Notes: generated by a model from the sequence alone, not told the origin. 42,081 nucleotides of DNA from a virus (IMGVR_UViG_3300031578_004878:1-42081); one strand, 5' to 3'; shown: positions 4,910 to 38,117, counted from the stretch's first letter. Numbers and translations: made by a program.

Positions 4910-4921
4910 TATCAAACCCTC

Positions 4922-12268: not shown

Positions 12269-12922
12269 TTAAGAGACTGCTATCAACTCTGGGAAGTCGG
12301 GAACATATACCATCATAAATAAGTTTTCCCAATATTCACGGTCGTCATTAGTCTTGCGGTGACAGTCTGAACAGAGAGTCACTAAATTTTCGAGACAAAG
12401 ATCCCCCTTGACGTAGTTTATATGATGTATGGAATGTCGTCTTTTGCCTTGTGGCTTTCCACACAGTATGCAGGTATAATTATCCCGTTTCCGAATTGTT
12501 TCTCGAAAATGTTTTGTCCAATTTATTGGATATGGCTCAAAGGATACGCCACCATGCCAATTTGGATGATTTGAACCACACAAGTTTGGCACTGGTTTAC
12601 CCTTCTTAGCTGCAGAGATTTTCTGCCCAGTTTCTTCAGAAACCAACTTGCCCTTATTGCCAATAGAGATTTTTTGCTTTGTTTCCTCAGAATGATGCTT
12701 GCCCATATGGGCCGCAGAAAGTTTCTTCTTAGTCTCATCAGAACGTGGTTTGCCCCTCAAGTCCAGTCTCGGTCGGCCCTTATGAGCTACAGATAGATTC
12801 CGCTTGTGTTTCTCGGAAAAGGGTTTGCCCTTGCGAGCCATAGATATTCGTTCACGCCACAGGTCATATTCAGGTGTTCCCCTCCATAAATCATATTCAG
12901 ATGTCCCCTTTTTATACATCAT
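12269..12922 (-). CDS. HNH homing endonuclease with NUMOD3 repeats
   Basis: About 217 aa from ATG 12922 (AGGA, 7-nt spacing). Residues about 30-110 hold four to five NUMOD3-type DNA-binding repeats of the form SEETKQKIS..NKGK. The C-terminal HNH nuclease has CILCGK, HSIHHINYVKGD and LCSDCH, giving the paired cysteines and the HH-N-H catalytic residues. At the N-terminus a 9-residue unit is duplicated (GTSEYDLWR, GTPEYDLWR). It is free-standing between a tail gene and the tail chaperone and has no obvious structural role, so it is probably a selfish endonuclease gene. Confidence 0.92.
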   Translation of the reverse strand: MMYKKGTSEYDLWRGTPEYDLWRERISMARKGKPFSEKHKRNLSVAHKGRPRLDLRGKPRSDETKKKLSAAHMGKHHSEETKQKISIGNKGKLVSEETGQKISAAKKGKPVPNLCGSNHPNWHGGVSFEPYPINWTKHFRETIRKRDNYTCILCGKPQGKRRHSIHHINYVKGDLCLENLVTLCSDCHRKTNDDREYWENLFMMVYVPDFPELIAVS

Positions 12923-12960
12923 TCGCACGTCCTTTATACAAATTCTTCCTCCTTATATTT

Positions 12961-14559: not shown

Positions 14560-15750
14560 CTAAGTCAAGGCGTATCCTACGCCCAAGTATTGTGAAATTA
14601 TCAACCACGCTTCCCAAGCTCCATTTTTAGGCCCAAATGGAGCTGTCAACTGTTCAAAAGCTACAGGACTTGTTGGCCTAGATTGCCATTCCTGTGCCAA
14701 CTTCTCAGACCCGCCGCAACCACAGATTGGCTCAGTGAGTAGAGAAGTAGCGAGAGCTGCCACGGCTCTATCGAAGGGCGCAGCCATTCTTCCCTGATAA
14801 TTCACAGGAAATCCAGCCCTATAATAGAGATTGGCGTAGTAAGGTTCATCTGTGATATTGAAATATGCAGCTAACCATGTTGATGTAGCACTATCCCAAA
14901 CCGCTGGAACCAATGTTACGATTCCAAGATTTGGATTTCGCGCCCGCAGTACTCCAGATGCTGTTACGAAGTTTATTACAGTGCTTCTTTCCCACTCGAA
15001 GACTGTGGGAGCAAAACTCGTTCCTTGTTCAGATGTATGAATATCATAAACGAATACTTCATCCAAATAAACAGTTACGTCGTCACCATTTATAGCAGCA
15101 TCTATTTGCCAATTGATGGGATGCACAAACTGTGAACTTTGTCCTTCAATTATTACTTGAGTATTCGTAAGTCCTATCTTAAGTCCTCGAATACGCTTGG
15201 TTTCATCTGTATCAGTCGATGGAAAAACACCGATTCTCTCTTTAGTCAAAGCTGTATTTGCATTGACATAAGGTACGGTTACTCTGGCGATTTCATTGAA
15301 ACCATCGCCATCTAAGTCGATATATTGAACTGGTCGATTGCTTCCAATCGCATCGATCTTTTTTCTTCCACCTTCTATGAAATAACCATATCGTGTCGTA
15401 ACCGTCTTTCGCCTATCCTGATTCTGGGCTGGATAATAGATTGTTCCATAATTAGTCAATACTCGATCTTGCCTTGGATAAGTATGCTTCTCAGCCTCGA
15501 ACCATCTTGGAGCTGGTGAGAACTCTAGTTCATTCATTATCATCTGCTCGGCTTGAGCGATGGCCCGCGCTAACCCCTCCCGTGAAGCCTTGCCCTTATC
15601 CATCCAATCGTATTGATACCAGATAGATTCACAGGTCGATACTACAGGGAAAGCATTACACCTCATTTGATTGAAATGCCGAGGATCGAGGCCGAGAATC
15701 TCTGAATAATGATCCAAGCTTAACAACGTGGGAGTATCGGCTCTAGCCAT
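14560..15750 (-). CDS. Virion structural protein, probable head-tail connector
   Basis: 396 aa. An N-terminal helical region (1-95) contains LDPRHFNQMRCNAF, CESIWYQYDW and a helix with EQMIMNELEF, similar in style to gp6-like head-tail adaptors. The rest is beta-rich with a calcium-loop-like DLDGDGFNE (about residue 147). It lies between two small connector-like genes and the probable tail protein gene, where head completion and connector proteins normally sit. No family-specific motif allows a firmer name; a tail terminator or baseplate-type protein is possible. Confidence 0.55.
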   Translation of the reverse strand: MARADTPTLLSLDHYSEILGLDPRHFNQMRCNAFPVVSTCESIWYQYDWMDKGKASREGLARAIAQAEQMIMNELEFSPAPRWFEAEKHTYPRQDRVLTNYGTIYYPAQNQDRRKTVTTRYGYFIEGGRKKIDAIGSNRPVQYIDLDGDGFNEIARVTVPYVNANTALTKERIGVFPSTDTDETKRIRGLKIGLTNTQVIIEGQSSQFVHPINWQIDAAINGDDVTVYLDEVFVYDIHTSEQGTSFAPTVFEWERSTVINFVTASGVLRARNPNLGIVTLVPAVWDSATSTWLAAYFNITDEPYYANLYYRAGFPVNYQGRMAAPFDRAVAALATSLLTEPICGCGGSEKLAQEWQSRPTSPVAFEQLTAPFGPKNGAWEAWLIISQYLGVGYALT

Positions 15751-15972
15751 TTATCCCTCCACCGCAAAGTCAGGTAAGGCACTAAAATAGTCTCTATCAC
15801 GAAGATTGACCAACTTGGTTGAATTTGCTCCAGTACCAAATCGATAGACGCTCCCCGTGGGAGTCTTGAAGTTTCTCGAACCCTGATAAATTCCCAGGTA
15901 TGTAACAGTTATCAATCCATCGAGATTCCTAGATTTTAATGAGTCTAATTTTTTCCTGCACCTGCAACCCAT
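15751..15972 (-). CDS. Small connector-region protein, module copy 3
   Basis: 73 aa starting MGCRCRKK, with AGGA 8 nt before the ATG. It overlaps the upstream paralogue by 28 nt in another frame. The core YLGIYQGSRNFKTPTGSVYRF aligns with the neighbouring 83-aa protein and with the C-terminus of the glycosyltransferase at 16197-18779: an aromatic-x-G start, GSR, TP-G, Y-F and a C-terminal D-F. The function is unknown. Such small beta-rich proteins are often found among head completion genes. The N-terminal MGCxC might bind metal or form disulfides. Confidence 0.7.
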   Translation of the reverse strand: MGCRCRKKLDSLKSRNLDGLITVTYLGIYQGSRNFKTPTGSVYRFGTGANSTKLVNLRDRDYFSALPDFAVEG

Positions 15973-16196
15973 TTGAATTGTCCTAGTTGTTGTGTGAAGA
16001 AGAATACGTCGCCACTCAAAACAGTGAATCTCTTATGATTTACCCCATCAAATTTGTATAGACTTCCAAGGGGAGTATTCACCGTCCTCGATCCTTTGTT
16101 GTCTCCAGTATATTCAAGAATCACAGTAGGATGTCCCCTCAAATCTGGAGGACGGCTCTTTATATTAACGATGTTCCTGCTACACCCACAGCCCAT
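15945..16196 (-). CDS. Small connector-region protein, module copy 2
   Basis: 83 aa starting MGCGCSRN. ATG follows immediately after the TAG of the fused glycosyltransferase. The core EYTGDNKGSRTVNTPLGSLY is closely similar to the YTGDNMGARTFRTPLGNRY in the C-terminal tail of the upstream gene, and less so to the 73-aa downstream paralogue. The three copies in a row argue for local duplication. A role as a small head-tail or decoration component is inferred from position only. Confidence 0.7.
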   Translation of the reverse strand: MGCGCSRNIVNIKSRPPDLRGHPTVILEYTGDNKGSRTVNTPLGSLYKFDGVNHKRFTVLSGDVFFFTQQLGQFKWVAGAGKN

Positions 16197-16376
16197 CTAT
16201 TGTGTCTCAACAACTTGAAAGTCGAGCATCCGCTCGAAAAAGTGTACGTCTTTTATCGGAACCCAAGATTGCCGTTGACCACGACCATCGAATCTATAAC
16301 GGTTTCCTAAAGGAGTCCTAAAAGTCCGCGCTCCCATATTGTCACCTGTGTACTTGATTAGTGCTTTCGTTGCCAT
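16197..16376 (-). CDS. Possible internal start: stand-alone module copy 1
   Basis: Met802 of the fused glycosyltransferase (ATG at 16376) is preceded by AAGGA with 7-nt spacing. Initiation there would yield a 59-aa protein, starting MATKALIKYTGDN, that matches the two downstream small proteins. The structural module could therefore be made separately, with the fusion arising only from loss of a stop codon between adjacent genes. The same DNA would also encode the C-terminus of the 860-aa product. Confidence 0.5.
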   Translation of the reverse strand: MATKALIKYTGDNMGARTFRTPLGNRYRFDGRGQRQSWVPIKDVHFFERMLDFQVVETQ

Positions 16377-18779
16377 CGCTTCATCCTTTTTGATTGACTT
16401 CTTAATTAAGGGATCTTCAGATAATATCACTAATCCCAGTTCTTTAGGAGGTAGGGCTTCTAAAGTTAAATATCTCTGCCTAAATCCCTTCATTAGTTCT
16501 TCGGCGTTATCGAGACACTCTTCCCTTCTCTTGCCGCTTTCATAATGATAAGAGAATAGTGGTTCAGGAACCCTTATTCCATGATAACCTTTATGCGCTA
16601 GTTGTACAGTATAGTCCCAATCCTCCCAAACAGGAATCTCTTCATTGAATCCGCCGACTTCATCGAAGGCTTCTTTTGGGTGTAAAAAAGTAACGACGAA
16701 GAGAGCCTGATTCTTTAGTCGCTCAAAGTTCCATTCTTCGGCGTGATGAACTTTTCCTTCTGGAAGTGAGATCCAATCAGTATAGATGATCGATTTTGGC
16801 CTGACGGCTGCAACTTTTAATGTCTGCCTAAGAAAGTGCTTGTCTAACTCATCATCTGCATCCAAGAAGAGCAGGAATCTCCCCTTCGCAGAATTCGCCC
16901 CCAGATTTCTAGCAGCACTGACGTTTCCGTACTTTCGCTTCCTCTTCCAGTTTATAAGTGGGTATCGAACACTATAGGGAAGTATACCACAATTTTTGAT
17001 TTTGCCAAACTTTGTATCGTCTACTACAATTAATTCCCATCGTCCGTCGGTCTGTGCTTTTACTGACTCTATTGCATTCTCTAAGATCGCCTCATGTCCA
17101 TCGCCGACAGGAATGATGATGGAGACCAACGGTTGATCGTAACTGAACACAGGGTGAGAATAGTGTTCTGGAGTTGCGATGCTGGCGAACGGCTGTGGGC
17201 CACCATTGGCGGCGGGAATAAAGTCTAACCAGTTGGGTTCTTTTACCTTTTCTTTCCTTGCTTTGTTGGTGATGCTATTCTCATGGACTCGATAAATCAT
17301 CACAGGGGTTTGAGTTGTATGAATCGCACTGAAACCTGCTAAACCAATGTTAGTCCAGAGTTCAGCGTCTTCTCCAAGCGTGAAATGATTTTTATATCCA
17401 CCAGCTCTGAAAAAAGCGTCTCTACGAAGAAGATTACAAGAAGGTACTTGATTCTGCTTCTTCAACTGAGCATCGAAATTGAAACCATTCGGCCAACTTC
17501 CAGCGACAGGCCCACGGGGGGTGTGAAGCTCAAGACTACCAAAAGAGATTCCGATAGATCGATCCTCTAGCAAGGGCGGTAGGAGTGTCTCCATGAAGCG
17601 TTCTTTTAAAGTATCATCAGCATCGAGGAAACACAGAAATTCGCCTTTGGCCTCCATCGCGCCTCGATTTCGTGCGCTTGCTACACCACGGTTGGATTGG
17701 ACTAAGACTTTGAACTTTGGATTGTTATTCACGGCCTTATTAATTTCCACTAGCGAGTCGTCTTCCGAGCCATCGTCGACTACGAGGCACTCCCAGTCCA
17801 AGAAGGTCTGCGATTTTACAGATCGAATGGCATCAGCAACGAAATCAGCGTAGTTATAACAAGGGATTATTACCGAGACCTGTGGGCCTTGATGTTTCTC
17901 TAAGGCCGATTCATAGACTTCGACGTATTTGGGGATGATGTCTTTCCAATCATGTTTTAGGGCTTCTTGTCGAGCGGCTTTCGATAATTTATCGAAATTG
18001 TCGATGCAATATCGTAAACCCTTCACAGTATCTTCATAATCTCCTGGTTTAGCGAGGTATCCAGTTTTCTTGTGGACTATTAGCTCAGGCGCATTACCCC
18101 AATTCCAGGCTAATGTCACCATTCCTGCGGCCATAGCTTCGAGGATGCCTATCCCATAAGTCTCCTTGGTTGGGGCAAAGTAGATGCCACTTTTGTAAAG
18201 GATTTCCTGCATTCTGTCGTAGGGTTGCAATCCAACTATATCCAAGTTCTTGGAAGAAGGCACACCAAAAGTGGAGATAAACTTCATGTCAGGACACAGG
18301 ACAGCGAGTTGTTGCATTGGTTCAGGAGTACAGACGGCATCGACTCGATTTTTATTGAAAATTACATCCATTTCCCTTGCTGTAGAAGGCTCTGGCCATT
18401 CTTCAAGACGGATGCCATGAGGTACGATAATTGGAGCGAAGCCCATATCGCGCACGAAGATCTCGGCGATCCACGGAGATGGGACTGTAATCCTCTTGAC
18501 TTTCCGAATGGTATCAATAATATTCCGATTTGAGCGCCACATCCATGCTGGCAGCGGAAACTCTCCCGACGGATAAAGTCCATGACAGTGAAGGATGTCT
18601 GGCAAGGTATCGGCAAAGGGCACAACATGAGCTGCGAGCACATCTGCATCTAAGGGGCTGTCAGTAAACTCCAGATAATCAATCAAGTAACGTCTTTGCT
18701 CAATTATTACGCGCTCGACACCTGTGATGGACTTTTGCGAAGGATCAATAGTTGGTGTGGGACTAAGAAAGAGTTTCAT
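16197..18779 (-). CDS. Triple-domain glycosyltransferase (GT4 + GT2 + GT2) fused to a connector-type module
   Basis: 860 aa. Residues 1-295: a GT-B domain with SPWIAEIF, a VPHGI switch and the E206-x7-E214 motif in KETYGIGILEAMAAG. Residues 298-515: a GT2 domain with VSVIIPCYNY, VVDDGSEDD, FLDADDT and GEDAEL. Residues 550-775: a second GT2 domain with VSIIIPVGDG, VVDDTK, FLDADDE and WEDWD. Residues 802-860: a small module repeated in the next two genes. All three catalytic domains look intact, so it could build a short oligosaccharide alone. The start lies 17 nt inside the upstream HNH gene. It is the last gene of the 12-kb sugar block. Confidence 0.88.
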   Translation of the reverse strand: MKLFLSPTPTIDPSQKSITGVERVIIEQRRYLIDYLEFTDSPLDADVLAAHVVPFADTLPDILHCHGLYPSGEFPLPAWMWRSNRNIIDTIRKVKRITVPSPWIAEIFVRDMGFAPIIVPHGIRLEEWPEPSTAREMDVIFNKNRVDAVCTPEPMQQLAVLCPDMKFISTFGVPSSKNLDIVGLQPYDRMQEILYKSGIYFAPTKETYGIGILEAMAAGMVTLAWNWGNAPELIVHKKTGYLAKPGDYEDTVKGLRYCIDNFDKLSKAARQEALKHDWKDIIPKYVEVYESALEKHQGPQVSVIIPCYNYADFVADAIRSVKSQTFLDWECLVVDDGSEDDSLVEINKAVNNNPKFKVLVQSNRGVASARNRGAMEAKGEFLCFLDADDTLKERFMETLLPPLLEDRSIGISFGSLELHTPRGPVAGSWPNGFNFDAQLKKQNQVPSCNLLRRDAFFRAGGYKNHFTLGEDAELWTNIGLAGFSAIHTTQTPVMIYRVHENSITNKARKEKVKEPNWLDFIPAANGGPQPFASIATPEHYSHPVFSYDQPLVSIIIPVGDGHEAILENAIESVKAQTDGRWELIVVDDTKFGKIKNCGILPYSVRYPLINWKRKRKYGNVSAARNLGANSAKGRFLLFLDADDELDKHFLRQTLKVAAVRPKSIIYTDWISLPEGKVHHAEEWNFERLKNQALFVVTFLHPKEAFDEVGGFNEEIPVWEDWDYTVQLAHKGYHGIRVPEPLFSYHYESGKRREECLDNAEELMKGFRQRYLTLEALPPKELGLVILSEDPLIKKSIKKDEAMATKALIKYTGDNMGARTFRTPLGNRYRFDGRGQRQSWVPIKDVHFFERMLDFQVVETQ

Positions 18780-19524
18780 TTTCTTTACTCGCAGAATGGT
18801 TATAGACTCGTGAGATCCAGGCTAAGAATTCATCTTGAGTCATCTTTCTTTTTGCATAATTACAGTCCTTACAACATGATACCACATTATCAATTTCGTA
18901 TCCGCACTCATTATCAATACGATCAAGGCCATTAAAAAGGTATACTCCATTGAAATGAGAATGAACCAAACTTCTTCCCCGTTGAGAAGGTTCCTTGCCA
19001 CAATAGTAGCACACTTGAGAGGTTAATCGTCGAATCTGTTCTACTGTTAGATTCCAAGAATATCCTCTTTGTTTAGCCGAATATTTCAGAGTACTAACCA
19101 ATTGATTGAATGCCGCTTCTCCAAAAGGCAAACTTTGTCTTTTGCGCACTCCTTCACTCCTTAAGCAACCGCAACTTTGGGTATGACCGTTTTGAAGACA
19201 CTCTCCGCGTACCTCGACTTCTTTGCCACAATCACAGTGGCAGAGCCACGCGATTTGTCTTCCTTTGGATTCTGCTTGACATAAAACGATTAGTCTTCCA
19301 AATCGACGACCAGTTCTATCGATGAGTTGTGCCTTCGCTCTATCTCTCTGAAGGCAACCACAACTTTGAGTGCGGCCACTTTGGAGGCTTTCTCCAAGTA
19401 CTTCGACTTCTTTTCCACAGTCGCAATGGCATATCCATATAATGTCCCCATTTCTATTTTCTGCTCGACTTAGTACAAGTAATCTTCCGTATCGGTGGCC
19501 TGTTCTGTCAATGAGTCGTGTCAA
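18763..19524 (-). CDS. HNH endonuclease with two Cys-rich DNA-binding modules
   Basis: 253 aa from TTG 19524, with AAGGAG 6 nt upstream. Two tandem modules (about 1-60 and 65-125) share LIDRTG.R.GRL, CHCDCGKEVEV and QSCGCL, each a likely four-Cys zinc site. The C-terminal nuclease has CYYCGKEP, NGLDRIDNECGYEIDNVVSC and CCKDCNYAK. The architecture is repeated by the gene at 34755-35480. It is free-standing between two glycosyltransferase genes and overlaps the next one by 17 nt. Probably a homing endonuclease. Confidence 0.9.
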   Translation of the reverse strand: MTRLIDRTGHRYGRLLVLSRAENRNGDIIWICHCDCGKEVEVLGESLQSGRTQSCGCLQRDRAKAQLIDRTGRRFGRLIVLCQAESKGRQIAWLCHCDCGKEVEVRGECLQNGHTQSCGCLRSEGVRKRQSLPFGEAAFNQLVSTLKYSAKQRGYSWNLTVEQIRRLTSQVCYYCGKEPSQRGRSLVHSHFNGVYLFNGLDRIDNECGYEIDNVVSCCKDCNYAKRKMTQDEFLAWISRVYNHSASKENETLS

Positions 19525-19539
19525 CTGAGTCTCCTTTTC

Positions 19540-20793
19540 TCAGATCGGATAATGTTCATCAGATCGCCACGCCCGTGCTTTCGCGGTCGCACCAGGCCGC
19601 CAATTTCCCTGGAACATCCTCCGCGTTCCAGCAATAAGATGCTTGACATAATTCTGCACAGGGAAATCTTGCAGTTCAAAGCCCTGTGCCAAAGCCGATC
19701 TCATATTTCCCACGCAAGGAGCACCTGAATTTTCCATCGGCGTTAACTGAAGGAACTTTTCCCTATCGATCATCGCAGCATGGGGGTGAATATAAGAAAT
19801 AACATTCCCTCCCTTCTTACCTGTGGGCACTCCCGACCATTTGTCTACGCTTCTCAACCACCCTGTCACGTATAGTTGTTTTGGATTCCTCTCGAACTCA
19901 GCGATCATTGCCTCCAAAAGTCCTGCACACTTTAAAGAGGCATCAGAATCATAAAGGAATACATAAGGTGTCTTTGCCAGTGCAATCCCCTGATTGATAG
20001 CGGGGCCATGCCCAATATTCTTCTCATTCAAAACGGCTGTGATATTCTCGTGCATCTCCCCGACTGTCTTTACATAAAGCGTCGATTCGTCGCCAGATCC
20101 GTTGTCGATGAGCACTAGAGGAATCTTTGGATAATACAACATCATAGTGCGCCGTGCCTCGTTCGTCAATTTTTTCGTCTTGTGATTAATTAGTATCACC
20201 GTAACATTCTCGTAAACTTTTCCCACATCTGGCGACACTACGACCTTTCTAGGCAATCCTTTTCCTCCGATTTTATCCACCATTATCATCGTTCTATTGA
20301 TCCAATAGGTACTGCACCCTGCATCAAAGAGTGCCTTTATGAAATAATAGTCCCCGTGCCTCGATTTTGCAAACATAAAAATGTGCTGTTTCCAGATCTC
20401 TCTTTTCACGATGAAACAGCAAGACCCGATCTCCCCCAGCACAGGGGGCTTCCCCCAAGTTCTCTTTGATGGTAGAAAGTCACTGAACGGTTTGCGATAT
20501 GCCTTGAAAAGAATGATGTCAACAGGATGTTGTGCGGCTACATTCTTTAAATGCTTGATGAAACTTCTATCGCTAATGTAATCGTCGTCGTCCAAAATCA
20601 GAACATATTGCCCATTCACCCTGTGTTTATTTTGATTCAGACTTTTATTGGCTTCGTGCAGTCCTTTATGCTCATTATCAGTAATTATTATATGTTCATA
20701 ATCGGGATCAATCTGCGTTGCCAACGACCTCCTATTTCTTGCAAGCAATCGAGTCCTTCCGCAAGATCGAGTTACCACAGATAAAAAAGTCAC
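19540..20793 (-). CDS. Two-domain family 2 glycosyltransferase
   Basis: 417 aa. The first GT-A domain (1-195) has FLSVVTRSCGR, IITDNE and a metal-binding LDDDDY. The second (about 195-400) has VTVILINHKTK, VLIDNGSGDES, NEKNIGHGPAINQGI and YDSDAS. GTG at 20793 overlaps the stop of the methyltransferase gene as GTGA, so translation is coupled. Each domain could add one sugar. Substrates are unknown. Confidence 0.85.
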   Translation of the reverse strand: MTFLSVVTRSCGRTRLLARNRRSLATQIDPDYEHIIITDNEHKGLHEANKSLNQNKHRVNGQYVLILDDDDYISDRSFIKHLKNVAAQHPVDIILFKAYRKPFSDFLPSKRTWGKPPVLGEIGSCCFIVKREIWKQHIFMFAKSRHGDYYFIKALFDAGCSTYWINRTMIMVDKIGGKGLPRKVVVSPDVGKVYENVTVILINHKTKKLTNEARRTMMLYYPKIPLVLIDNGSGDESTLYVKTVGEMHENITAVLNEKNIGHGPAINQGIALAKTPYVFLYDSDASLKCAGLLEAMIAEFERNPKQLYVTGWLRSVDKWSGVPTGKKGGNVISYIHPHAAMIDREKFLQLTPMENSGAPCVGNMRSALAQGFELQDFPVQNYVKHLIAGTRRMFQGNWRPGATAKARAWRSDEHYPI

Positions 20794-21278
20794 TTTATAG
20801 CCTCACAAAGTATGTCGCCATCTGGCATATGTCCCGACCTAGTTGGGTAAGCAGTGCATTTCTTTATCTTGAAACCAGAATCTTTAACAATCTGGTGCAT
20901 CCTATCCGCCGTGAAAAAGTTCCTATTGATGTGCCCTTCTCCTCTTGAGACCGATCCCAAAAGCCAGGTCAACCCCTCTCCCCAACGCAACTTAGAATCA
21001 CCTGCCAACCATCTCTTTAGATAAGCCTCAATATTTGGGCAACGAATCATCAATACTCCACCAAACCTTAGAACCCTCCTCCATTCTTTCAGCATTATCT
21101 GAAACTCTTGTAATGTGGCGTGTTCTACCATATGCGATGTGTAAATCTTGTCCACAGTATCATTAGCGTAAGGCAACTCAGAGGCGTCCACATTTAGATC
21201 CGCTTCTTTAGAATATTTATCGATATTTACGAAGTCCTTCATTCGAGTAGTCCCACTACCCAAATTGAGTTGTAGCAT
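20790..21278 (-). CDS. Class I SAM-dependent methyltransferase
   Basis: 162 aa. LQLNLGSGTTRMKDFVNID is the SAM-binding motif I; LNVDASELPYANDTVDKIY and SHMVEHATL follow, with WRRVLRFGGVLMI as motif post-I/III, as in predicted sugar-cluster type 11 methyltransferases. GAGGA lies 5 nt before the ATG. The start is inside the last codons of the CgeB-like gene. It resembles the 147-aa methyltransferase at 1347-1790 in layout. Confidence 0.85.
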   Translation of the reverse strand: MLQLNLGSGTTRMKDFVNIDKYSKEADLNVDASELPYANDTVDKIYTSHMVEHATLQEFQIMLKEWRRVLRFGGVLMIRCPNIEAYLKRWLAGDSKLRWGEGLTWLLGSVSRGEGHINRNFFTADRMHQIVKDSGFKIKKCTAYPTRSGHMPDGDILCEAIK

Positions 21279-22188
21279 GGCATTCCTCGATTATCTTTTT
21301 TGTGTAGTGAGTAAAAGTATATCGTGCCAGTATTTCCCTTTGTCCATTTATAGCAATTTCTGTACGCTCTTTTGGGTGTTTCAAATAATAATCTATCATA
21401 GCAAAGAGTTCCTGATCTGACTTGTACCAAACCAGATGCTTGTGGTTAGTAAACAAATCCTCGATGCCTTCAGAATAAGTCTGAATAAGGAAGCAACGGG
21501 AACTTAAAACATTGGGCAATCGATTCGAAAAGTATCCCTCCAAATATCGCCATTCGTCTCCGATCAGACTGAGCATAATCTTCGTCTGCCCGCACAATTT
21601 AGCAAAGTCTCCACCGAAAGCAGGACTGAGAGATTTAAATTGTGTCCCTGTCCAATTTGGGCCAGCCACATAGAGATTGAATCTCTTGTGCAACTCATTC
21701 AAAGTTCTACGTCTGGAAACATCGTTATTCCAACCAGGAAAAACTACATTGTAAATCTGCTTCGATGGACGATACTTGAAAATACTAGGCTCTGTAGGAC
21801 AAGGAAGATAAGTACAGTTGAAAACTCCCTTTTCAATATTCTGTTTTATGTGTGTCTTGTTAGAGATATAAACATAATCTGCTGCAACTCTAGCAAGTCG
21901 CAGATGATACTCAGAGTAAGGACGGTCGCCGTAGAAAGCAGAGATACCACAATTCAATTCGTCCTTGACTCTTCGTAACATTCGAGCATCGACGCTTCTC
22001 CCAGACTTTACACTACCGCCAAGATGAATGTGTGTAGGTCGAAAATCGAGAAGAATCTGCTCAAGGCGATCTTTTTTATTCCGAGCATCAAAGTGCTGAA
22101 CTATACCAAGTTTTCGGAAAGCATTGAGCCAATAAAAGTTAGAGTTTGTTTTCTCAAATAAATCTACATAAAAGATTCGTTCAGCCAC
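21256..22188 (-). CDS. CgeB-like (GT-B) glycosyltransferase
   Basis: 310 aa. The C-terminal half carries the CgeB/Glyco_trans_1_2 signature: YFSNRLPNVLSSRCFLI, then HLVWYKSDQELFAMIDYYL, then IAINGQREILARYTF with a terminal H. The N-terminal half has HIHLGGSVKSGRSVDARML and FYGDRPYS. Such proteins are probable glycosyltransferases acting on surface or spore polysaccharide. GTG at 22188 has GAGGA upstream and overlaps the preceding related gene by 8 nt. Confidence 0.83.
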   Translation of the reverse strand: MAERIFYVDLFEKTNSNFYWLNAFRKLGIVQHFDARNKKDRLEQILLDFRPTHIHLGGSVKSGRSVDARMLRRVKDELNCGISAFYGDRPYSEYHLRLARVAADYVYISNKTHIKQNIEKGVFNCTYLPCPTEPSIFKYRPSKQIYNVVFPGWNNDVSRRRTLNELHKRFNLYVAGPNWTGTQFKSLSPAFGGDFAKLCGQTKIMLSLIGDEWRYLEGYFSNRLPNVLSSRCFLIQTYSEGIEDLFTNHKHLVWYKSDQELFAMIDYYLKHPKERTEIAINGQREILARYTFTHYTKKIIEECHATTQFG

Positions 22189-23131
22189 GAAGTTCCTCCA
22201 CGAATAAAGCTGCTCGTTTTTCCCAAGTACAAGCGAAGGCAGTCTTCTGACCCAGTTTGATTAAACGCTCTCGCTCCTGTGGATCATTGATGTAGCGATC
22301 TAACAATTGTCTAAGATGTTGAGCTGATTTATACTGTGGTACAGCACCCTTGAAAATTCCTTGCAAACCAATATTCTTATCTGAGATAGCAAGACTTCCA
22401 CTAGCTAAAATATCAAAGATTTTTACCGAAACGAAACCCTCTCTGGACATTTCGGGCCTATGATCTTGAAGACACATTTTTGCCGATGCGTAAAGATTCT
22501 GGATTTCTGGATAGGGATAGTAACGACCGCCATACCACGAATCTGGAATCTTTCCTTTCCAATTATTTCCAAAAATGGCAATTCTATAAGGAAGATTCCC
22601 TAAAGATTTCAAATGGTTGATTATTGCTCGACCATCCATTCCATGAGGGCCTCTATTATTTCCTACAAAGACCATATCATACTTATTAGCTATATTCACA
22701 GGTCTTTTAGAAGTTGCGCCTAACATCACCTGTGCATCGTAACCCATCTGTCGCAATTTTGCAGTGAAAAATGTCGAACAGCAAAAGATTTTATCATAGC
22801 CACGCAAATTTGTAGAATTTGGTTTCTCAGGATGGGAATAAACCCAAGCGATCTTGTAAATGCTGCTTGGAAGTTGTTCGATTTTCTTTTTATAAATATA
22901 TTCTATCTCACCACCAGAAAGATGAATTAGTACATCGGGTGGATTTATGTCTGGTCTACTAACTGAGATACGATGTCCGAGATTCTTCAAAGCTGTAGAT
23001 AATTCTTCCTTTGCCCAGTTATCCCCCCATAAATTTCTACCGAGTCCTGGAGGACTTATATCAGAGGGAGCAGCTACGTGAATTATCAAACTTTTCTTTT
23101 CTTTTAGTTGTAGTAGTCTTTCATTTCTCAT
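22181..23131 (-). CDS. CgeB-like (GT-B) glycosyltransferase
   Basis: 316 aa. DMVFVGNNRGPHGMDGRAII, PEIQNLYASAKMCLQDHRPE and GFVSVKIFDILASGSLAISD form the C-terminal donor-binding half of CgeB-type proteins, followed by SAQHLRQLLDRYINDP and the closing helix. The N-terminus has a GxGRNLWGDNWAKEEL motif. It is adjacent to and distantly related to the 310-aa protein downstream, so the two probably act in sequence. It overlaps both neighbours by 8-11 nt. Confidence 0.83.
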   Translation of the reverse strand: MRNERLLQLKEKKSLIIHVAAPSDISPPGLGRNLWGDNWAKEELSTALKNLGHRISVSRPDINPPDVLIHLSGGEIEYIYKKKIEQLPSSIYKIAWVYSHPEKPNSTNLRGYDKIFCCSTFFTAKLRQMGYDAQVMLGATSKRPVNIANKYDMVFVGNNRGPHGMDGRAIINHLKSLGNLPYRIAIFGNNWKGKIPDSWYGGRYYPYPEIQNLYASAKMCLQDHRPEMSREGFVSVKIFDILASGSLAISDKNIGLQGIFKGAVPQYKSAQHLRQLLDRYINDPQERERLIKLGQKTAFACTWEKRAALFVEELRG

Positions 23132-23684
23132 AAAGAATTACCGCATTTGGCCAAAATTTTGTTTTCCCTTTTGGTCTAGGATATACAATCGAATGAACAA
23201 TATCCTGTCTTTCAAAGCAACTTAAAATCTTCCTTACATCCATAATGAAATATCGATGCTCTTCATAAGGATTGCCATCTATCGGGCCTTGTTTTTCCTT
23301 GCCGACTGGAAAAGAGAGCATAAGGAACTTTCGTGTGATTCGACAAAGTTTCTTTATTGTCAAATAGATTTCTGCAAAATTATTGAGATGCTCGATGCCA
23401 TGAATCCAACAAACTACATCGAAAGAATTTGCGGGAAAAATATAGTTAATGAATCGAACATCTCCAGAGATTGCATTATAACCACGTTCTCGTAATTCCC
23501 TGACATTTGGAGGATGAATCTCCAAAATAGTATAATCTTTGACACCAAATCTCTGCAAGCCCTTGAAAAGACCAGCACCATATTCAGGAAGATAACGAGC
23601 ACCAATATCTAAGGCAGATTCACCATGAAAATGATACTTTGTTAAGAATTCTATCGTAGACTCATCGAAGTCCCTGCTTTTCAC
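23121..23684 (-). CDS. SAM-dependent methyltransferase
   Basis: 187 aa. ALDIGARYLPEYGAGLF is motif I; YTILEIHPPNVREL, AISGDVRFI and FDVVCWIHGIEHLNN follow in Rossmann order, with FPVGKEKQGPIDGN and HRYF in the C-terminal half. Those C-terminal motifs are shared with the 185-aa protein at 1775-2332. GTG at 23684 overlaps the stop of the acetyltransferase gene as GTGA. The substrate is probably a sugar of the cluster product (inference). Confidence 0.8.
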   Translation of the reverse strand: MKSRDFDESTIEFLTKYHFHGESALDIGARYLPEYGAGLFKGLQRFGVKDYTILEIHPPNVRELRERGYNAISGDVRFINYIFPANSFDVVCWIHGIEHLNNFAEIYLTIKKLCRITRKFLMLSFPVGKEKQGPIDGNPYEEHRYFIMDVRKILSCFERQDIVHSIVYPRPKGKTKFWPNAVILYEK

Positions 23685-24241
23685 AAATCCAACTCTTTAA
23701 TTAGTGTTTCTCTCAACGCATTGAAAGCATCCCTCAGTAAACCATGAATATAGACATCGATGTATTTCCCATTCTTGAACTTCTGCTCTCTAAGAATGCC
23801 CTCTTCTTGAAAGCCCATCTTTTGATAAACCGCCCTAGCACCCTCATTTAGAGCCATAGTCTCTAACCAAATCTTGTTGAGATTGAGGTGATTGAAAGCA
23901 TAATCAAGGAGCAAGAATACAGCTTCCATACCATAGCCCCATCCACGGTATTTAGCCTCTCCGATAAGAAATCGACCAAACTCCGCTGTGCGATTGCGCC
24001 AATCTATGTTGCTCAGTCCAATAGCACCAATAGTTGTATCATCGATAGTCTGAATCATATAATATCGAGCATTGGGATCACATAAGACTTTATCAATCCA
24101 TTCCGAATGTGAATCAAAAGAAAGAGGCTCCTCTTCGAAGAAGAAGGCTTTCACCTGTGGATCATTCCGCCATCGCACAAGACAATCATCATCTAAATAA
24201 TTACCATAAGCTCGTAAAATCACCTTCTTACCTATGAACAT
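23681..24241 (-). CDS. GNAT-family N-acetyltransferase (PseH/RimJ-like)
   Basis: 186 aa. KVILRAYGNYLDDDCLVRWRNDP is the usual start of RimJ/PseH-type enzymes. IGEAKYRGWGYGMEAV (about residues 93-108) is the acetyl-CoA pyrophosphate loop. IWLETMALNEGARAVYQKMGF is the conserved closing region. AGGA precedes the ATG, which lies 10 nt inside the DegT gene. Next to a sugar aminotransferase, N-acetylation of a 4-amino sugar nucleotide is the most likely role. Confidence 0.87.
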   Translation of the reverse strand: MFIGKKVILRAYGNYLDDDCLVRWRNDPQVKAFFFEEEPLSFDSHSEWIDKVLCDPNARYYMIQTIDDTTIGAIGLSNIDWRNRTAEFGRFLIGEAKYRGWGYGMEAVFLLLDYAFNHLNLNKIWLETMALNEGARAVYQKMGFQEEGILREQKFKNGKYIDVYIHGLLRDAFNALRETLIKELDL

Positions 24242-25401
24242 TCATTCATCCTCCCAAAATCCAAGATAGAATCGATGATATAAGAAACCTCATCATCTGT
24301 GAGAGCAGGATACATTGGAAGCGTCAACAACTTTGGCCATACTCGCTCTGCGACAGGAAGAATCATAGAACCCAACCTGCGACGATAATAAGGCTGCAAA
24401 TGAATCGGGTAGTAATGTACCCCTGTGGCGATCCCCTTTTCCTTGAGGAAAGCGTTCAAGGCGTCTCTGTGGGAAGTTTTTATCACATAATTGTGCCAAG
24501 AACTTTTCGCATATGGTTTCTCTATAGGAGTTTCTATCCAAGGGGCACTCTCCTGAAAGGCAGCAGTGTAAGTGCTTGCGATCTCACGTCGTCTGGCGTT
24601 AGCTGTGTCTAGTTTTGCAAGTTGACATAAGCCAATGACGGCGGCAATATCGTTCATATGATATTTGTATCCCAATTCTGCAACTTCGTAATACCAAGAA
24701 TATTGCTTATACGCAGCCTCCTCGGTTCGATCCCAAGTGCTCTTGTCAATTCCGCACCATCGAAGTCGTCGTAGTCTTTCAGCCAGTTCTAGGCGATTTG
24801 TGGTAATCATTCCTCCATCGCCACAGGGGAGATTTTTTACTGCATGAAAGCTGAAGCAAGCGGCCATACTGCGTTCAAGACTACCGATTTTTTGCCCCTT
24901 ATACTCACTCCCACAGGCATGTGCAGCGTCTTCGATGACATGGAGACCATATTTGTCGGCGATATTCCAAATGGCGTCCATCTGGCAGGGATGACCACCA
25001 TAATGTACGGGGATTATGGCCTTCACACTAGGATGGCCTAACTTCGCTGCCGTCCTTAGTTTTTGTGCCAGATCTTTGAGCTGGATATTCAAAACATCTG
25101 GCACGATGTCGATGAAAAGGGGGAGCGCGCCACAATAGGTCGGAGCGTGGGCTGTGGAAACGAAAGTCATCGTAGGAACAGCTACCATATCCCATTCACC
25201 GAGATCTAAAGCCAAGCAACATAAGTGAAGGGCCGCCGTGCAACTATTAGTGGCAATAGTGTACTTCGCACCGACATACTCTGCGAATCGTTCCTCAAAC
25301 TCTTCCGTCTTCGGGCCGAGTCCTATCCAGCCAGTCTGAAATATTTCCCAAAGGGCTTTGAGTTCTTCTTCACCAAGAGATGGCCGAAAGACTGGGATCA
25401 T
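24232..25401 (-). CDS. DegT/DnrJ/EryC1 PLP-dependent sugar aminotransferase
   Basis: 389 aa. ATG at 25401 is chosen because AAGGAAG lies 8 nt upstream and ATGA overlaps the upstream stop; the frame also extends to 25446. IPVFRPSLGEEEL, GWIGLGPKTEEFE and NSCTAALHL open the fold. D158 (VIEDAAHACG) and K189 (SFHAVKNLPCGDGGM) are the PLP-binding residues. Family members aminate keto-sugar nucleotides, for example to 4-amino-4,6-dideoxy sugars. No dehydratase or nucleotidyltransferase is present in the window, so the keto sugar would have to come from the host. Confidence 0.93.
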   Translation of the reverse strand: MIPVFRPSLGEEELKALWEIFQTGWIGLGPKTEEFEERFAEYVGAKYTIATNSCTAALHLCCLALDLGEWDMVAVPTMTFVSTAHAPTYCGALPLFIDIVPDVLNIQLKDLAQKLRTAAKLGHPSVKAIIPVHYGGHPCQMDAIWNIADKYGLHVIEDAAHACGSEYKGQKIGSLERSMAACFSFHAVKNLPCGDGGMITTNRLELAERLRRLRWCGIDKSTWDRTEEAAYKQYSWYYEVAELGYKYHMNDIAAVIGLCQLAKLDTANARRREIASTYTAAFQESAPWIETPIEKPYAKSSWHNYVIKTSHRDALNAFLKEKGIATGVHYYPIHLQPYYRRRLGSMILPVAERVWPKLLTLPMYPALTDDEVSYIIDSILDFGRMNECS

Positions 25402-26054
25402 TTTTTCATCTTCCTTGCGTTGATGCGCCGCGTCGATTCTACCCATCCTGGATAGTCTAAGGGAACCTGGCGCAACTTGACTGGTAAGGGATCGGAATCA
25501 AGATTGATCTTCTCCTGCGCTTTCCAATCTTTCACTTTCGTCGCTGTAATCCACACTCCCCTGGCTTGTGTCGCAGAGTGCCCCTCAGCAGTCACATCTA
25601 AGATTTGAAAACGACGAAATAACTGCACCATCCCCCGTGGAGTGAAACGCCAGTAATCTCGCATTGTATTAGGGCCAGAAGGTCGATAAACATGGTAAAA
25701 ATCGGTGGTTAGAATACAGACTCCATCAAATTTGCACACCTTCCACAACACATCTATGGCTTTTTGAGGATCATAAATTCGAGAAAGAGATTCCATATTC
25801 AAGATGAAATCAGCATATTCCGCGCCAACAATATTGTCTAATGCACAAATATCACAGATATAATCCATCGATGGGGGTGTGGTGTCAGAGACATCATGCT
25901 TGAAATAAACAGCACCTTTGAATAAAGACTCATACCAAGTAGTCCAACTAAGGATGAATCCTGCGCAAGTGTCCAAAATGATCTTACCCTGTGTAGACCA
26001 ATGAAAGCGATTAAGCATATCTTCTATGTAACCGCGAGTGCGTTGCGCTGGCAT
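25398..26054 (-). CDS. Probable methyltransferase-like protein
   Basis: 218 aa. GKIILDTCAGFILSWTTWYES stands in for motif I but is not canonical. YICDICALDNIVGAEYADFI, ILNMESLSRIYDP and AIDVLWKVCKFDGVCIL follow the type 11 order, and YRPSGPNTMRDYWRFTPRGM is the typical C-terminal signature of this methyltransferase group. The start forms TAATG with the upstream stop and the end forms ATGA with the DegT start. The role is inferred from context and C-terminal motifs. Confidence 0.72.
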   Translation of the reverse strand: MPAQRTRGYIEDMLNRFHWSTQGKIILDTCAGFILSWTTWYESLFKGAVYFKHDVSDTTPPSMDYICDICALDNIVGAEYADFILNMESLSRIYDPQKAIDVLWKVCKFDGVCILTTDFYHVYRPSGPNTMRDYWRFTPRGMVQLFRRFQILDVTAEGHSATQARGVWITATKVKDWKAQEKINLDSDPLPVKLRQVPLDYPGWVESTRRINARKMKK

Positions 26055-26797
26055 TAGAGTCTCTGAAGACCTTTCTCTTGCATCATGGTCGCCAATTCAC
26101 TTAAGAATACAAATCGTGCAGGAGCCAAACTGTGAATCGTTTGCAGAATCTTATTTACGATTATGGGCGTAAGATTATTCTTTAGTTTGCTAACGCAATG
26201 CCCTCTATGTAGATAATACTTGGTAATATCTGGAATCTTTCCCTTGTTGTAAAATAAGAAACTCTTTTGATCAGTGTTATAATAAATATCACTGTTTGGA
26301 AAGATTAATGGAAGGTCAGTTTCTTCGTAATCGTCTATGTAAAATGGATGCCCCGCCAGATAGAGATAATTCTGCTTCTCCAATGCTTTGACGCATCCCT
26401 TACTAATTATCCAACGCGGAGGACGGAAACCTTTAGTAAAAGATAATCCGACTTCATCCGCAGTGCGTTCACAAAGTTGCAAAAGCTCCATAGATTGCTC
26501 TTCACTTAATAATGAAAACTCAGGAATCATTTTAGCATCTACCAGATGATGTTTGTAACCATGATAGGCTAGTTCTACATTCTTGGTGGGCAATGCCCGA
26601 ACCTGCGAACACCACTGAGGATTATCATGAAGATCGTTGCCTTTGGCCACGGCGGTGTTTATGGAAACGAAGAGAGTCATCTTGATATTTGGGCATTTCC
26701 TAACTAATTCCCTCAATAGAGCAAAATTTGTGAAGGCTGGAATGAAGTCATCTAAACTTAAATTATAAAGAATCGGTTCAGAATTGGACTGTTGCAA
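26054..26797 (-). CDS. Polysaccharide deacetylase-like protein
   Basis: 247 aa. NLSLDDFIPAFT supplies a DD metal/catalytic motif, YHGYKHHL a histidine motif and FRPPRW the third NodB-type motif, in that order. VFLSELATMM closes the barrel-like domain. These enzymes remove N-acetyl groups from glycans or sugars. TTG at 26797 follows AAGGAG at a 10-nt distance and overlaps the methyltransferase gene by 20 nt. It could alternatively be an inactive or N-formyl-type relative. Confidence 0.7.
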   Translation of the reverse strand: MQQSNSEPILYNLSLDDFIPAFTNFALLRELVRKCPNIKMTLFVSINTAVAKGNDLHDNPQWCSQVRALPTKNVELAYHGYKHHLVDAKMIPEFSLLSEEQSMELLQLCERTADEVGLSFTKGFRPPRWIISKGCVKALEKQNYLYLAGHPFYIDDYEETDLPLIFPNSDIYYNTDQKSFLFYNKGKIPDITKYYLHRGHCVSKLKNNLTPIIVNKILQTIHSLAPARFVFLSELATMMQEKGLQRL

Positions 26798-27317
26798 AAA
26801 TTATATGCTCCTTAATATAATTTTGTAAGACCACAAAAGGTCTGAAAACAGAAGTCAAAGATGCTCTCGTAAATTTATGCACATGACTGATATGTCCATG
26901 ATAATTGCCACACGTTACAGATACAAAGAGTTTCCCCAAAGGCTTAAGAATCCTCGAAATCTCAGAAATCAAAGTTTTCAAATCTTTGATGTGCTCTATC
27001 GTAGCTAACATAAAGGCATTATCAAACATTTGGTCTTCAAAAGGCATCATCAAAGCATTTGCGACGCAAAATTTAGAACCAAAATGCTTGGTTGCATAAT
27101 CAACCGCAACCCATGAAAAGTCAATGCCGATAATTTCGCAATTCTTTGTTGCTAAAAATGTCCTAATTCCTAATCCACAGCCTATATCTAAAACTAAACC
27201 ATGAAGAATATCGCTTTTGAGCAATTCTTTAGTTATCAGATGATTCTTATACCAGTCTAAAGTAAATGAGTGCCCCTTCTTGGAGATTTCTATTATCTCA
27301 GCCCAAATTGCATCCAT
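26778..27317 (-). CDS. SAM-dependent methyltransferase
   Basis: 179 aa. I chose ATG at 27317, one base after the stop of the upstream glycosyltransferase, over an in-frame start at 27419 that would overlap it by 100 nt. VLDIGCGLGIRTFLA is a clear motif I, followed by IGIDFSWVAVDYA, VANALMMPFEDQMFDNA and SRILKPLGKLFVSV. It is the most canonical methyltransferase in the window. Its target is unknown. Confidence 0.87.
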   Translation of the reverse strand: MDAIWAEIIEISKKGHSFTLDWYKNHLITKELLKSDILHGLVLDIGCGLGIRTFLATKNCEIIGIDFSWVAVDYATKHFGSKFCVANALMMPFEDQMFDNAFMLATIEHIKDLKTLISEISRILKPLGKLFVSVTCGNYHGHISHVHKFTRASLTSVFRPFVVLQNYIKEHIIFATVQF

Positions 27318-27318
27318 A

Positions 27319-28020
27319 TCATTTGAATTTCCGATCAAGTTCTGTACCTTGACGCGATTTACCGATATGGTTAAAAGCTCTAGTAATTCCAGTCTCCAAG
27401 GTAACGAGCTTCGGCCCACTTTCGAGCTTATCCTTCACTCTATGCGCGAAGGAACTTTCCGTCTCTCCAAGTGGCTTTCCCATTGCATATTCACCATAAG
27501 CCCGATGAAATTTCTTATGTTTCAAATGTGGACGGTTGCTATAAACGTTCAATCCTCGACTATTTTTGAGGATTTCCAAGTATTGTAGTACACCTAAAGA
27601 GGTATCAACTTCTTCTATCGCCAGATTGAGCCTGTGTCCAGCCAGACCATCATAGCGGACTAAACCAATGTTTGCTTTAGAATCAAGAAGAGCAACACCC
27701 TTATTTATGTCAAGAGGATAAAGCGCAACGTAATCATCTTCACAGAGGAAGATATGTTTTTCACCTATCATCTGCATACATTTATTGACGTTTGCACCCC
27801 AACCAAGTCTTTTAGTGATAGAAACCCTAAAATTCAACTTAGGAAAATCGTGTTGAATATCCAAAACATATTTGCCTGGACTGCCATCGTCGGCCAAGTA
27901 CCAGATAATCCTTCCTTCATATTTTAGATATTTTTCCAATGCTACGATGACGCGACGAATCTCGTCTGGTCGGTCGTAAGTCACGACCATTATTCCCACC
28001 ACAGGCCAAACGTCGCTCAT
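27319..28020 (-). CDS. Family 2-type glycosyltransferase
   Basis: 233 aa. VGIMVVTYDRPDEIRRVI and YLADDGSPG form the nucleotide-binding half. KRLGWGANVNKCM and LCEDDYVAL supply the metal-binding acidic motif. The C-terminal GETESSFAHRVKDKL region may hold the catalytic base. It is the first gene of the 12-kb sugar block after the capsid gene and is separated from it by a stable stem-loop. Confidence 0.82.
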   Translation of the reverse strand: MSDVWPVVGIMVVTYDRPDEIRRVIVALEKYLKYEGRIIWYLADDGSPGKYVLDIQHDFPKLNFRVSITKRLGWGANVNKCMQMIGEKHIFLCEDDYVALYPLDINKGVALLDSKANIGLVRYDGLAGHRLNLAIEEVDTSLGVLQYLEILKNSRGLNVYSNRPHLKHKKFHRAYGEYAMGKPLGETESSFAHRVKDKLESGPKLVTLETGITRAFNHIGKSRQGTELDRKFK

Positions 28021-28073: not shown

Positions 28074-29522
28074 CTATCGAGTCTCCCAGCCCTTGTACCA
28101 GTTAGCGTCGATAAGCGGCATTTCGTCGATGCCACCCTTCAACCTATAAGGACTGTCAGGATTCCAATCTCTCAAGTGCTGCAGAGGCTCATAAGATACA
28201 TTCTCGATTCGGCCAGACAGATGCGGCGTCCGCAAGATAAGCCGAGGCTCGATCTTTGCGCGGAAGAGGAAGCAGTAGGACTGATCCTCCATCGTCCACA
28301 TATATCGACCACCATCCGTCACCCAGTAGCGATGCTTGTTCTTGAGCACTTCGAGTTCTGGAGCAGTGAGTGTATAGTCCATAAACTCAAAGTAAGACAC
28401 TCGCATTCCGCGTGCGCGGAGAGGGATGTAGTAAATATCAGAGGCAAACTCGCCTGGTTGCAAGTTAGCGTTGTTTACTACGTTAGCCTCGAAAATACCA
28501 TCATCCGTCACCACAGGTACTTGGCGACCGTTGACCCAGAGGAACATCCCATTACGCATTTCATCGCGCATTCGGACATTTCCTTCATCATTGATCACCA
28601 AAGTCGGGTTGACCTGACCAGGCATTACGCTAGTCTGGCAACGATTGGTCAGATACCGACATGGCCAGCAAGCTGTAAGCTCGATCCACAGTTCTGGTCG
28701 CATAGCGATAACCCAATCCACAGGGGCTAGTCCAGCGCGATCTGCTACGTGGCGCAGATAGATGTCCAGATAGGAGATGTACTGTACGATGTCCCTATCA
28801 CCAGCCGCCGTTCCGCAGACGTTATCGTAGTTGAAGTCTTTGATGTCTGGCTCTATGGCTTGGCAGCGAACGTTGGTGAACAGGTCTACCTTTGGCTGAG
28901 AAATGAGAATATCGAATCCAGGGAATTCCATATATCCACCACCAGCGGTATTATTCACGGGGTTTCCTTGCCAGACCATAGGATAAAACGCGGATTGCAG
29001 TTGTGTGCCAACGATGACCATTTGAGCCTTTGTGACCAAGTTCAACCAGTCACGAACGCTCGTAACGTCTTGTGGCATCATCGGGGCGGGTCCAAGCACG
29101 TCACCAAGTACACGAAGATCGGTGGTTTCTCCTCGATTCACCTTTCGGATTAGCTCATTGATTTCCATCTCTTGACTTTCGCGGCAGATTCTGCCAAACT
29201 GGGCTGTCTGATGACATACCTCGATGATTCCACCAGGACAGTCCTCGCAGACACCTACTGGCTCTGCGCTTCCATCAGGATCGAAACCAGTGATGAAAGG
29301 ATAAATCGGATTACGAAAAGTTGTGCCAAATGCGGGAAGTATCGAAGCAATGCCACGAGGAGTCGTTGCAGCATTTACGACGGTATCCTCCAAACCAAGA
29401 GCACTGAAAATTCCACCAGGAGCATAGATCATCTGTGCAGTTGGCGTTCCAGTGATATTCTTGGTCTCTAGCGTCTTCTCAGAGAGAAGCGCCTGCGCAA
29501 GTTTCCTATAATCAATGTCCAT
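28074..29522 (-). CDS. Major capsid protein
   Basis: 482 aa. It sits directly after the protease/scaffold gene with a strong RBS (taggaggttaaa before ATG). Text such as TPTAQMIYAPGGIFSALGLEDTVV, RDWLNLVTKAQMVIVGTQLQ, DWVIAMRPELWIELTACWPC and MFLWVNGRQVPVVTDDGI fits an HK97-fold capsid with an N-terminal arm and a long insertion. Several Cys pairs (CEDCPGG, CWPCRY) might stabilise the shell. The assignment rests mainly on gene order, size and RBS strength. Confidence 0.82.
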   Translation of the reverse strand: MDIDYRKLAQALLSEKTLETKNITGTPTAQMIYAPGGIFSALGLEDTVVNAATTPRGIASILPAFGTTFRNPIYPFITGFDPDGSAEPVGVCEDCPGGIIEVCHQTAQFGRICRESQEMEINELIRKVNRGETTDLRVLGDVLGPAPMMPQDVTSVRDWLNLVTKAQMVIVGTQLQSAFYPMVWQGNPVNNTAGGGYMEFPGFDILISQPKVDLFTNVRCQAIEPDIKDFNYDNVCGTAAGDRDIVQYISYLDIYLRHVADRAGLAPVDWVIAMRPELWIELTACWPCRYLTNRCQTSVMPGQVNPTLVINDEGNVRMRDEMRNGMFLWVNGRQVPVVTDDGIFEANVVNNANLQPGEFASDIYYIPLRARGMRVSYFEFMDYTLTAPELEVLKNKHRYWVTDGGRYMWTMEDQSYCFLFRAKIEPRLILRTPHLSGRIENVSYEPLQHLRDWNPDSPYRLKGGIDEMPLIDANWYKGWETR

Positions 29523-37287: not shown

Positions 37288-37289
37288 TT

Positions 37290-38081: not shown

Positions 38082-38088
38082 GTTAACC

Positions 38089-38117
38089 ATTATAGCATAA
38101 TTCTTTATAAAATGCAA
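38089..38117 (-). promoter_or_regulatory. Extended -10 promoter for the late operon
   Basis: On the minus strand TTGCAT (38117-38112), a 17-bp spacer ending in TGC, and TATAAT (38094-38089) form an extended -10 sigma70 promoter with a weak -35. It overlaps the U-tract of the preceding terminator and points into the GIY-YIG and terminase genes. Confidence 0.65.

Follow-up and report, generated by a model that had tools for sequence, protein, structure and literature searches.

Why should a tailed virus keep a long run of sugar-modifying genes in the middle of the operon that builds its particle? The question is raised by IMGVR_UViG_3300031578_004878 (record G000), a 42,081-base fragment of a tailed virus that was analysed over its whole length and is called the window below, and in which positions 16197-28020 hold a block of glycosyltransferase (GT), methyltransferase and amino-sugar genes. 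To our knowledge, only a few isolates among the tailed viruses of prokaryotes have been reported to have glycosylated virions. Based on the content of the block and on its layout in related viral contigs, we consider it fairly probable that the block is a virus-encoded glycosylation locus within the late structural operon, that its GT core is fixed and its tailoring genes are exchangeable, and that it acts most likely on virion protein.

The block and its place in the structural operon

A preliminary description, made from the sequence of the window alone, had proposed a glycan-modification block at these positions, and profile searches confirmed it. All of its genes lie on the minus strand. 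Five of them encode GTs and three are clear methyltransferase genes, with a fourth that is weak; the others encode a DegT aminotransferase, a GNAT acetyltransferase, a DUF2334 polysaccharide-deacetylase-like protein and an HNH endonuclease (Table 1). The two-domain, three-domain and GT2 glycosyltransferases, the DegT and GNAT proteins and the deacetylase-like protein named in that description were all recovered by Pfam matches, and the last of these also has an NCBIfam match to a GlcNAc-PG deacetylase (3.8e-8, below cut-off). Other details needed amendment. The single CgeB-like GT turned out to be two genes, 21256-22188 and 22181-23131, both matching PF13524. Three of four supposed methyltransferases stood (26778-27419, 23121-23684 and 20790-21278); the fourth, 25398-26054, falls below the cut-off and is a probable methyltransferase by way of a relative's protein (L084:19376-19969) that matches both it and 26778-27419. 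The gene at 18763-19524, which encodes an HNH endonuclease and no sugar enzyme, had gone unmentioned, and so had a pair of small genes in which the C-terminal domain of the three-domain GT recurs. Translational coupling by ATGA or GTGA had been claimed throughout; exact four-base overlaps were seen at 20790/20793, at 23681/23684 and, if the DegT gene possibly starts at 25401, at 25398, and at the remaining junctions the genes overlap by one base in a single case, overlap by more, or lie 15 and 53 bases apart. From its start codons, 26778-27419 probably begins nearer 27317-27338. The annotation as a whole is not a product of chance: its E-values are strong, divergent relatives show the same layout, and GT and sugar-nucleotide families are missing from control genes upstream of the capsid gene.

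The surrounding operon is siphovirus-like and runs on the minus strand, its order of transcription being terminases, portal-like protein, capsid, glycan block, two small genes, a 396-amino-acid (aa) protein, a BNR/YCF48 protein, tape measure, distal tail protein and M23 peptidase. The capsid gene, which no PHROG or PDB sequence profile names (the PDB search gave chance matches only) and which has no match among 50,697 records of cultured phages, was recognized by structure prediction. An AlphaFold model from six sequences was unusable (predicted local distance difference test, pLDDT, 34), and one from 41 sequences was used instead (pLDDT 79.0, predicted template-modelling score 0.78). The best 50 matches of the latter in a Foldseek search of the PDB were HK97-fold shells (best E=1.1e-9), nearly all of them phage capsids, together with one gene-transfer-agent capsid and one encapsulin, and a viral structure library agreed. 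The modelled fold identifies the protein as an HK97-type major capsid protein, and therefore the block starts directly after the capsid gene. Hence one border of the preliminary description, which had set the block between capsid and connector, held. For the other, the conserved 396-aa protein, a connector identity was not borne out: even with 22 homologues it matched no PHROG, its PDB profile search gave chance matches only, and gene order alone would suggest a connector.

A capsid profile search found 43 viral contigs, 32 of which were examined for layout. Capsid gene, variable island and three-domain GT follow one another on one strand in 30 of the 32, which upholds the placement in the structural operon given in the preliminary description; the 396-aa protein follows the GT in 28, and does so on the same strand wherever both were found. 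The island varies between 1.6 and 21.8 kb, and after merging capsids at 70% identity there are 25 lineages that retain island and GT core. Eleven capsid-bearing viral records have no full match to the three-domain GT; one of these, G045, is long enough to be counted as an exception, and the others, which end within ~2.6 kb of the capsid gene, were left uncounted. A block lying outside the structural operon, which the preliminary description would have taken as refutation, was encountered in part and in one contig: in G016 the capsid module is distant and lies on the opposite strand, while island-type genes, three-domain GT, 396-aa protein and tail genes stay together. This layout suggests that the tie of the island to the tail side is at least as strong as its tie to the capsid.

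The core enzyme and the exchangeable island

Across 28 homologues of the three-domain GT, the catalytic motifs show almost no exceptions: EX7E is retained in the GT4 module, and LDADD and ED in each of the two GT2 modules (G032, in which the GT4 part is a separate reading frame, was left out of the alignment). All three modules are therefore probably active, and, as expected of virion glycosylation systems, the viruses themselves encode GTs with intact catalytic motifs. The enzyme ends in a small domain of ~55 aa, preceded in most homologues by a cysteine knuckle, which also occurs in the two downstream genes, of 83 and 73 aa, that begin MGCGC and MGCRC. All 28 modules contained it, 23 as a fusion to the GT and five as a stand-alone gene beside it, with both forms in four, and this alternation between fused and split states suggests that enzyme and domain work together; docking is the simplest reading that the fusion and fission suggest. 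The domain had no Pfam match above noise, chance matches only in a PDB profile search and no counterpart in cultured phages. In distant relatives, inspection by eye disclosed a helix-hairpin-helix-like tail at the C-terminus of the GT (L106, L108, L110, L112, L113, L114, L116, L118, L120, L121 and L122) or, in L119, at the end of a stand-alone small protein. Distant relatives also encode, between the three-domain GT and the 396-aa protein, a small hydrophobic protein of ~105 aa with the pattern LATWRxSSL...CxWCxSVW, which by eye resembles DUF1360.

Between this core and the capsid gene, content changes quickly. This virus and G005 share 99% identity in the capsid and 97% in the 396-aa protein, but only 64-91% in the island genes, and three genes (25398-27419) are replaced in G005 by one HNH gene. 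G004 keeps the first GT, the two-domain GT and the three-domain GT at 71-79% identity and has different genes in the middle; the first gene of the block lies in the same place in G004 and G005 at 79-80% identity. The locus is, as far as these comparisons tell, a fixed GT core with an exchangeable, fast-changing tailoring island, in which the recurrent HNH genes may help gene exchange.

Such turnover would also be expected if the island were a permissive insertion site for unrelated accessory genes carried by homing endonucleases, the three-domain GT alone being related to the virion. HNH genes are indeed found there (HNH_3 in six of 147 island open reading frames (ORFs), and 18763-19524 in the window), and close relatives exchange content, as G005 illustrates. 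However, the island is strongly biased towards sugar enzymes. Pfam scans of the 147 island ORFs found 17 GT2, 13 epimerase, 8 DegT, 8 Polysacc_synt_2, 6 + 4 sulfotransferase and 3 GT10 matches as well as several methyltransferase families, and 4,6-dehydratases are present too, whereas the 142 control ORFs upstream of the capsid gene had no GT or sugar-nucleotide family among the 25 families listed and a single generic methyltransferase match. Of the GT2 domains not belonging to the core GT, the islands hold 28 in 198 kb and the remaining sequence 13 in 1525 kb; with one record per lineage the figures are 21 in 167 kb and 7 in 1355 kb (Wilcoxon p=1.2e-4), an enrichment of about 17-24 times (~24-fold by lineage). 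We therefore hold an insertion site of this kind to be quite unlikely.

As to the sugar, the preliminary description had proposed synthesis of an N-acylated 4-amino sugar, and this gained support. The GNAT protein passed the NCBIfam PseH model (102.3 bits, cut-off 93.1); PseC was the best NCBIfam model for the DegT protein, at 367.4 bits against a cut-off of 423.5, with ArnB as its best PDB match (4.1e-83); and islands of relatives hold PseB-like dehydratases. A nucleotide-sugar dehydrogenase is also encoded in the islands of relatives. PseB (PF02719), which is present in the islands of other relatives, was found neither in the window nor in G001, a record that encodes the genes of the window from 35495 to the end at 100% protein identity and probably represents the remaining half of this virus's genome. 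No NeuB/PseI synthase (PF03102) turned up in 32 records, G001 among them and many of them fragments, and on that ground full nonulosonic-acid synthesis was rejected. Because PseB-like enzymes occur in relatives and no NeuB/PseI was found, a 4-amino-sugar nucleotide is a likelier product than a nonulosonic acid, and the common chemistry of the islands looks like one of 4-amino-4,6-dideoxy sugars and other unusual hexoses.

Virion protein, host surface or DNA

We infer the identity of the sugar, the order of transfer, the acceptor and the docking role as follows. The three-domain GT would be the fixed core enzyme, adding up to three sugars in sequence, and the genes between it and the capsid gene would make and decorate unusual sugars. 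In this virus the PseC-like aminotransferase would make a 4-amino-4,6-dideoxy-sugar linked to uridine diphosphate (UDP), the PseH-type enzyme would N-acetylate it, the additional GTs would transfer the product and the methyltransferases would methylate. Attachment would take place in the cytoplasm, most likely to a virion protein of the same operon (the capsid, 396-aa or small-domain proteins), and the small domain, whether fused to the GT or separately encoded, would probably dock the enzyme to its target or a partner. Tentatively, and with less conviction, the proposal can be carried further: a three-in-one GT, joined physically or genetically to a small virion-operon domain, might build a core oligosaccharide on virion proteins during head-tail assembly, and the continual swapping of the island might give each virus its own coat of amino-sugars with methyl and sulfate caps, serving as antigen variation or receptor mimicry, across a large group of uncultured tailed viruses.

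The preliminary description had left virion glycosylation side by side with remodelling of the host surface. On the latter account the block would act late in infection to alter O-antigen, capsule, teichoic acid or S-layer, for progeny release or superinfection exclusion; bacterial surface-polysaccharide clusters likewise hold GTs, methyltransferases and deacetylases, and of the PHROG families that these GTs match, most are classed as morons and several, GtrB-like, are assigned to O-antigen conversion. However, a simple hydropathy scan found no transmembrane segment in any block protein, and only one of 169 island ORFs has three or more hydrophobic segments, so neither a GtrA-like flippase nor a GtrC-like enzyme was recognized. 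This argues against gtr-type remodelling and favours glycosylation of the virion, as does the fixed position of the core GT beside structural genes in nearly all contigs examined. Host-surface remodelling is accordingly disfavoured, and we regard it as unlikely.

A further alternative is that the enzymes glycosylate virion DNA, in the form of hypermodified bases, and not protein. Phage base-modification pathways also contain GTs, GNATs and aminotransferases, and helix-hairpin-helix motifs often bind nucleic acid, which lends the tail of the distant core-GT homologues some weight here. Nucleotide hydroxymethylases, however, derive from the thymidylate-synthase family, no member of which (PF00303) was found in 11 records including the probable other half of the genome; moreover, the genes sit among late structural genes, and sugar-nucleotide enzymes, sulfotransferases and GT2/GT4 folds suit glycans better. 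DNA as the acceptor thus appears very improbable.

Several points weigh against glycosylation of virion protein as set out above. The DegT protein stays under the PseC cut-off, and since PseB was not found in the two records, the virus would depend on its host for the 4-keto sugar. The three-domain GT is missing from G045, though other GT2 genes adjoin the capsid gene there. G016 has its core GT and tail-side genes apart from the capsid gene, and a capsid-specific role is therefore not forced. Lastly, glycosylation of virion protein leaves the helix-hairpin-helix-like GT tail of the distant relatives without explanation.

Neighbouring genes and comparison with known systems

A second glycan cluster (1347-4915) follows the tail genes; it is more conserved than the capsid-side island, as its identity in G005 is 94-99%. 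The protein encoded by 13042-14550 has BNR/YCF48-like repeats in its C-terminal part and is possibly a tail protein with a propeller decoration. A calcineurin-like phosphoesterase, whose identity in close relatives is 82-96%, lies between the terminase and portal genes. Four HNH or HNH-related genes are spread over the structural region (12269-12928, 18763-19524, 34755-35480 and 37290-38117); the second and third share 46% identity, and the first and fourth a common segment at 37%. Assignment of a host was attempted and failed, the signals pointing in different directions: the best terminase matches are haloarchaeal and Methanofastidiosa viruses (25-26%), the few capsid matches in cellular genomes are on short contigs of metagenome-assembled genomes (an Altiarchaeales archaeon, a Desulfuromonadales and an Ardenticatenales bacterium), and the M23 peptidase would fit a bacterial host.

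Table 1. Positions of features in the window and, in the last row, in related contigs
Positions	Strand	Feature	Match (E-value) or remark
36817-37320	-	Terminase small subunit	First in transcription order
35495-36817	-	Terminase large subunit	
33893-34744		Calcineurin-like phosphoesterase	PF00149 2.3e-6
32385-33719	-	Portal-like protein	Weak match
31822-32388, 29532-30815	-	Operon genes without name	Between portal-like and capsid genes
28074-29522	-	Predicted HK97-fold major capsid protein, 482 aa	Upstream border of block
27319-28020	-	GT2 glycosyltransferase	PF00535 1.4e-5; first gene of block
26778-27419	-	S-adenosylmethionine (SAM) methyltransferase	PF08241 2.6e-18
26054-26797	-	DUF2334 polysaccharide-deacetylase-like protein	PF10096 3.2e-12
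25398-26054	-	Probable methyltransferase (weak)	PF13489 0.012, below cut-off
24232-25446	-	PseC-like DegT sugar aminotransferase	PF01041 4.4e-111
23681-24241	-	PseH-type GNAT N-acetyltransferase	9.3e-23
23121-23684	-	SAM methyltransferase	PF08241 7.7e-5; 23.7 bits, cut-off 21.2
22181-23131	-	GT-B glycosyltransferase	PF13524 9.2e-17
21256-22188	-	GT-B glycosyltransferase	PF13524 4e-21
20790-21278	-	SAM methyltransferase	PF08241 1.5e-7
19540-20793	-	Two-domain GT2 glycosyltransferase	PF00535 1.9e-21, two stretches
18763-19524	-	HNH endonuclease inserted in block	PHROG 374 1.4e-38
16197-18779	-	Three-domain glycosyltransferase GT4-GT2-GT2	PF00535 6.6e-49 (two stretches), PF00534 1.1e-16
16200-16394	-	Small C-terminal domain of three-domain GT	Homologous to two downstream genes
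15945-16196	-	Stand-alone copy 1 of small domain	83 aa, MGCGC
15751-15972	-	Stand-alone copy 2 of small domain	73 aa, MGCRC
14560-15750	-	Conserved 396-aa structural-operon protein	Downstream border of block
13042-14550	-	Protein with BNR/YCF48 repeat region	PF14870 3.6e-8; adjoins 396-aa protein downstream
8357-11497	-	Tape measure protein	
7462-8367	-	Distal tail protein	
4922-6481	-	M23-peptidase protein	
3674-4915		GT1-type glycosyltransferase	Second cluster
3027-3713, 2332-3042		GT2 glycosyltransferases	Second cluster
1775-2332		Methyltransferase	Second cluster; no Pfam match; resembles 23121-23684
1347-1790		Methyltransferase	Second cluster
L105:3783-4106, L108:1512-1820, L109:3889-4191, L112:3633-3968		Small hydrophobic protein	

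Glycosylation of phage virions is already known; new here is a locus whose position is fixed throughout the lineage and which combines a conserved three-domain GT with an exchangeable tailoring island. The mycobacteriophages Che8, Corndog and Myrna are reported to glycosylate capsid and tail tube with GTs of their own (Freeman et al. 2023, cited in PMC12363180). Phage-encoded GTs are presented there as modifying capsid and tail proteins, a likeness to the present case, and only one or two essential GTs are described, whereas here a multi-gene synthesis and tailoring island and a three-domain GT, known from their genes alone, are fixed between capsid and tail-side genes across a group of uncultured viruses. 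The A111/114R protein of chlorovirus PBCV-1 also has three GT domains in one protein, acts on capsid glycans in a pathway run by viral enzymes, and is conserved in all chloroviruses (PMC7826918); the likeness seen is one of design. Chloroviruses are unrelated eukaryotic giant viruses, and the present enzyme is GT4-GT2-GT2 with a small domain. With the pseudaminic acid pathway (PseB-C-H-G-I-F) the locus shares PseC-like and PseH-type enzymes, and its relatives a PseB-like one, but in the 32 records without NeuB/PseI the pathway would stop at a di-N-acetylated UDP-hexose. Gtr O-antigen cassettes resemble the block in their phage-borne GT2 enzymes, with PHROG matches to GtrB-like families, yet differ in genomic position and in their membrane proteins of GtrA/GtrC type; gtr-type conversion was made unlikely by the lack of any hydrophobic segment in the block proteins. 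The hypervariable host-interaction region of Ostreococcus viruses (PMC12906663) is likewise a faster-evolving region between conserved syntenic parts, an analogy only, since those viruses are eukaryotic and the genes different.

If glycosylation of virion protein is the correct reading, two questions would become testable. One is which advantage a rapidly changing coat of sugars brings to a virus of prokaryotes, be it host binding, environmental persistence or avoidance of surface defences; the other is how glycosylation in several steps is brought to a particle that the virus is still assembling. The locus would in addition provide GTs, sulfotransferases and methyltransferases active on protein glycans.

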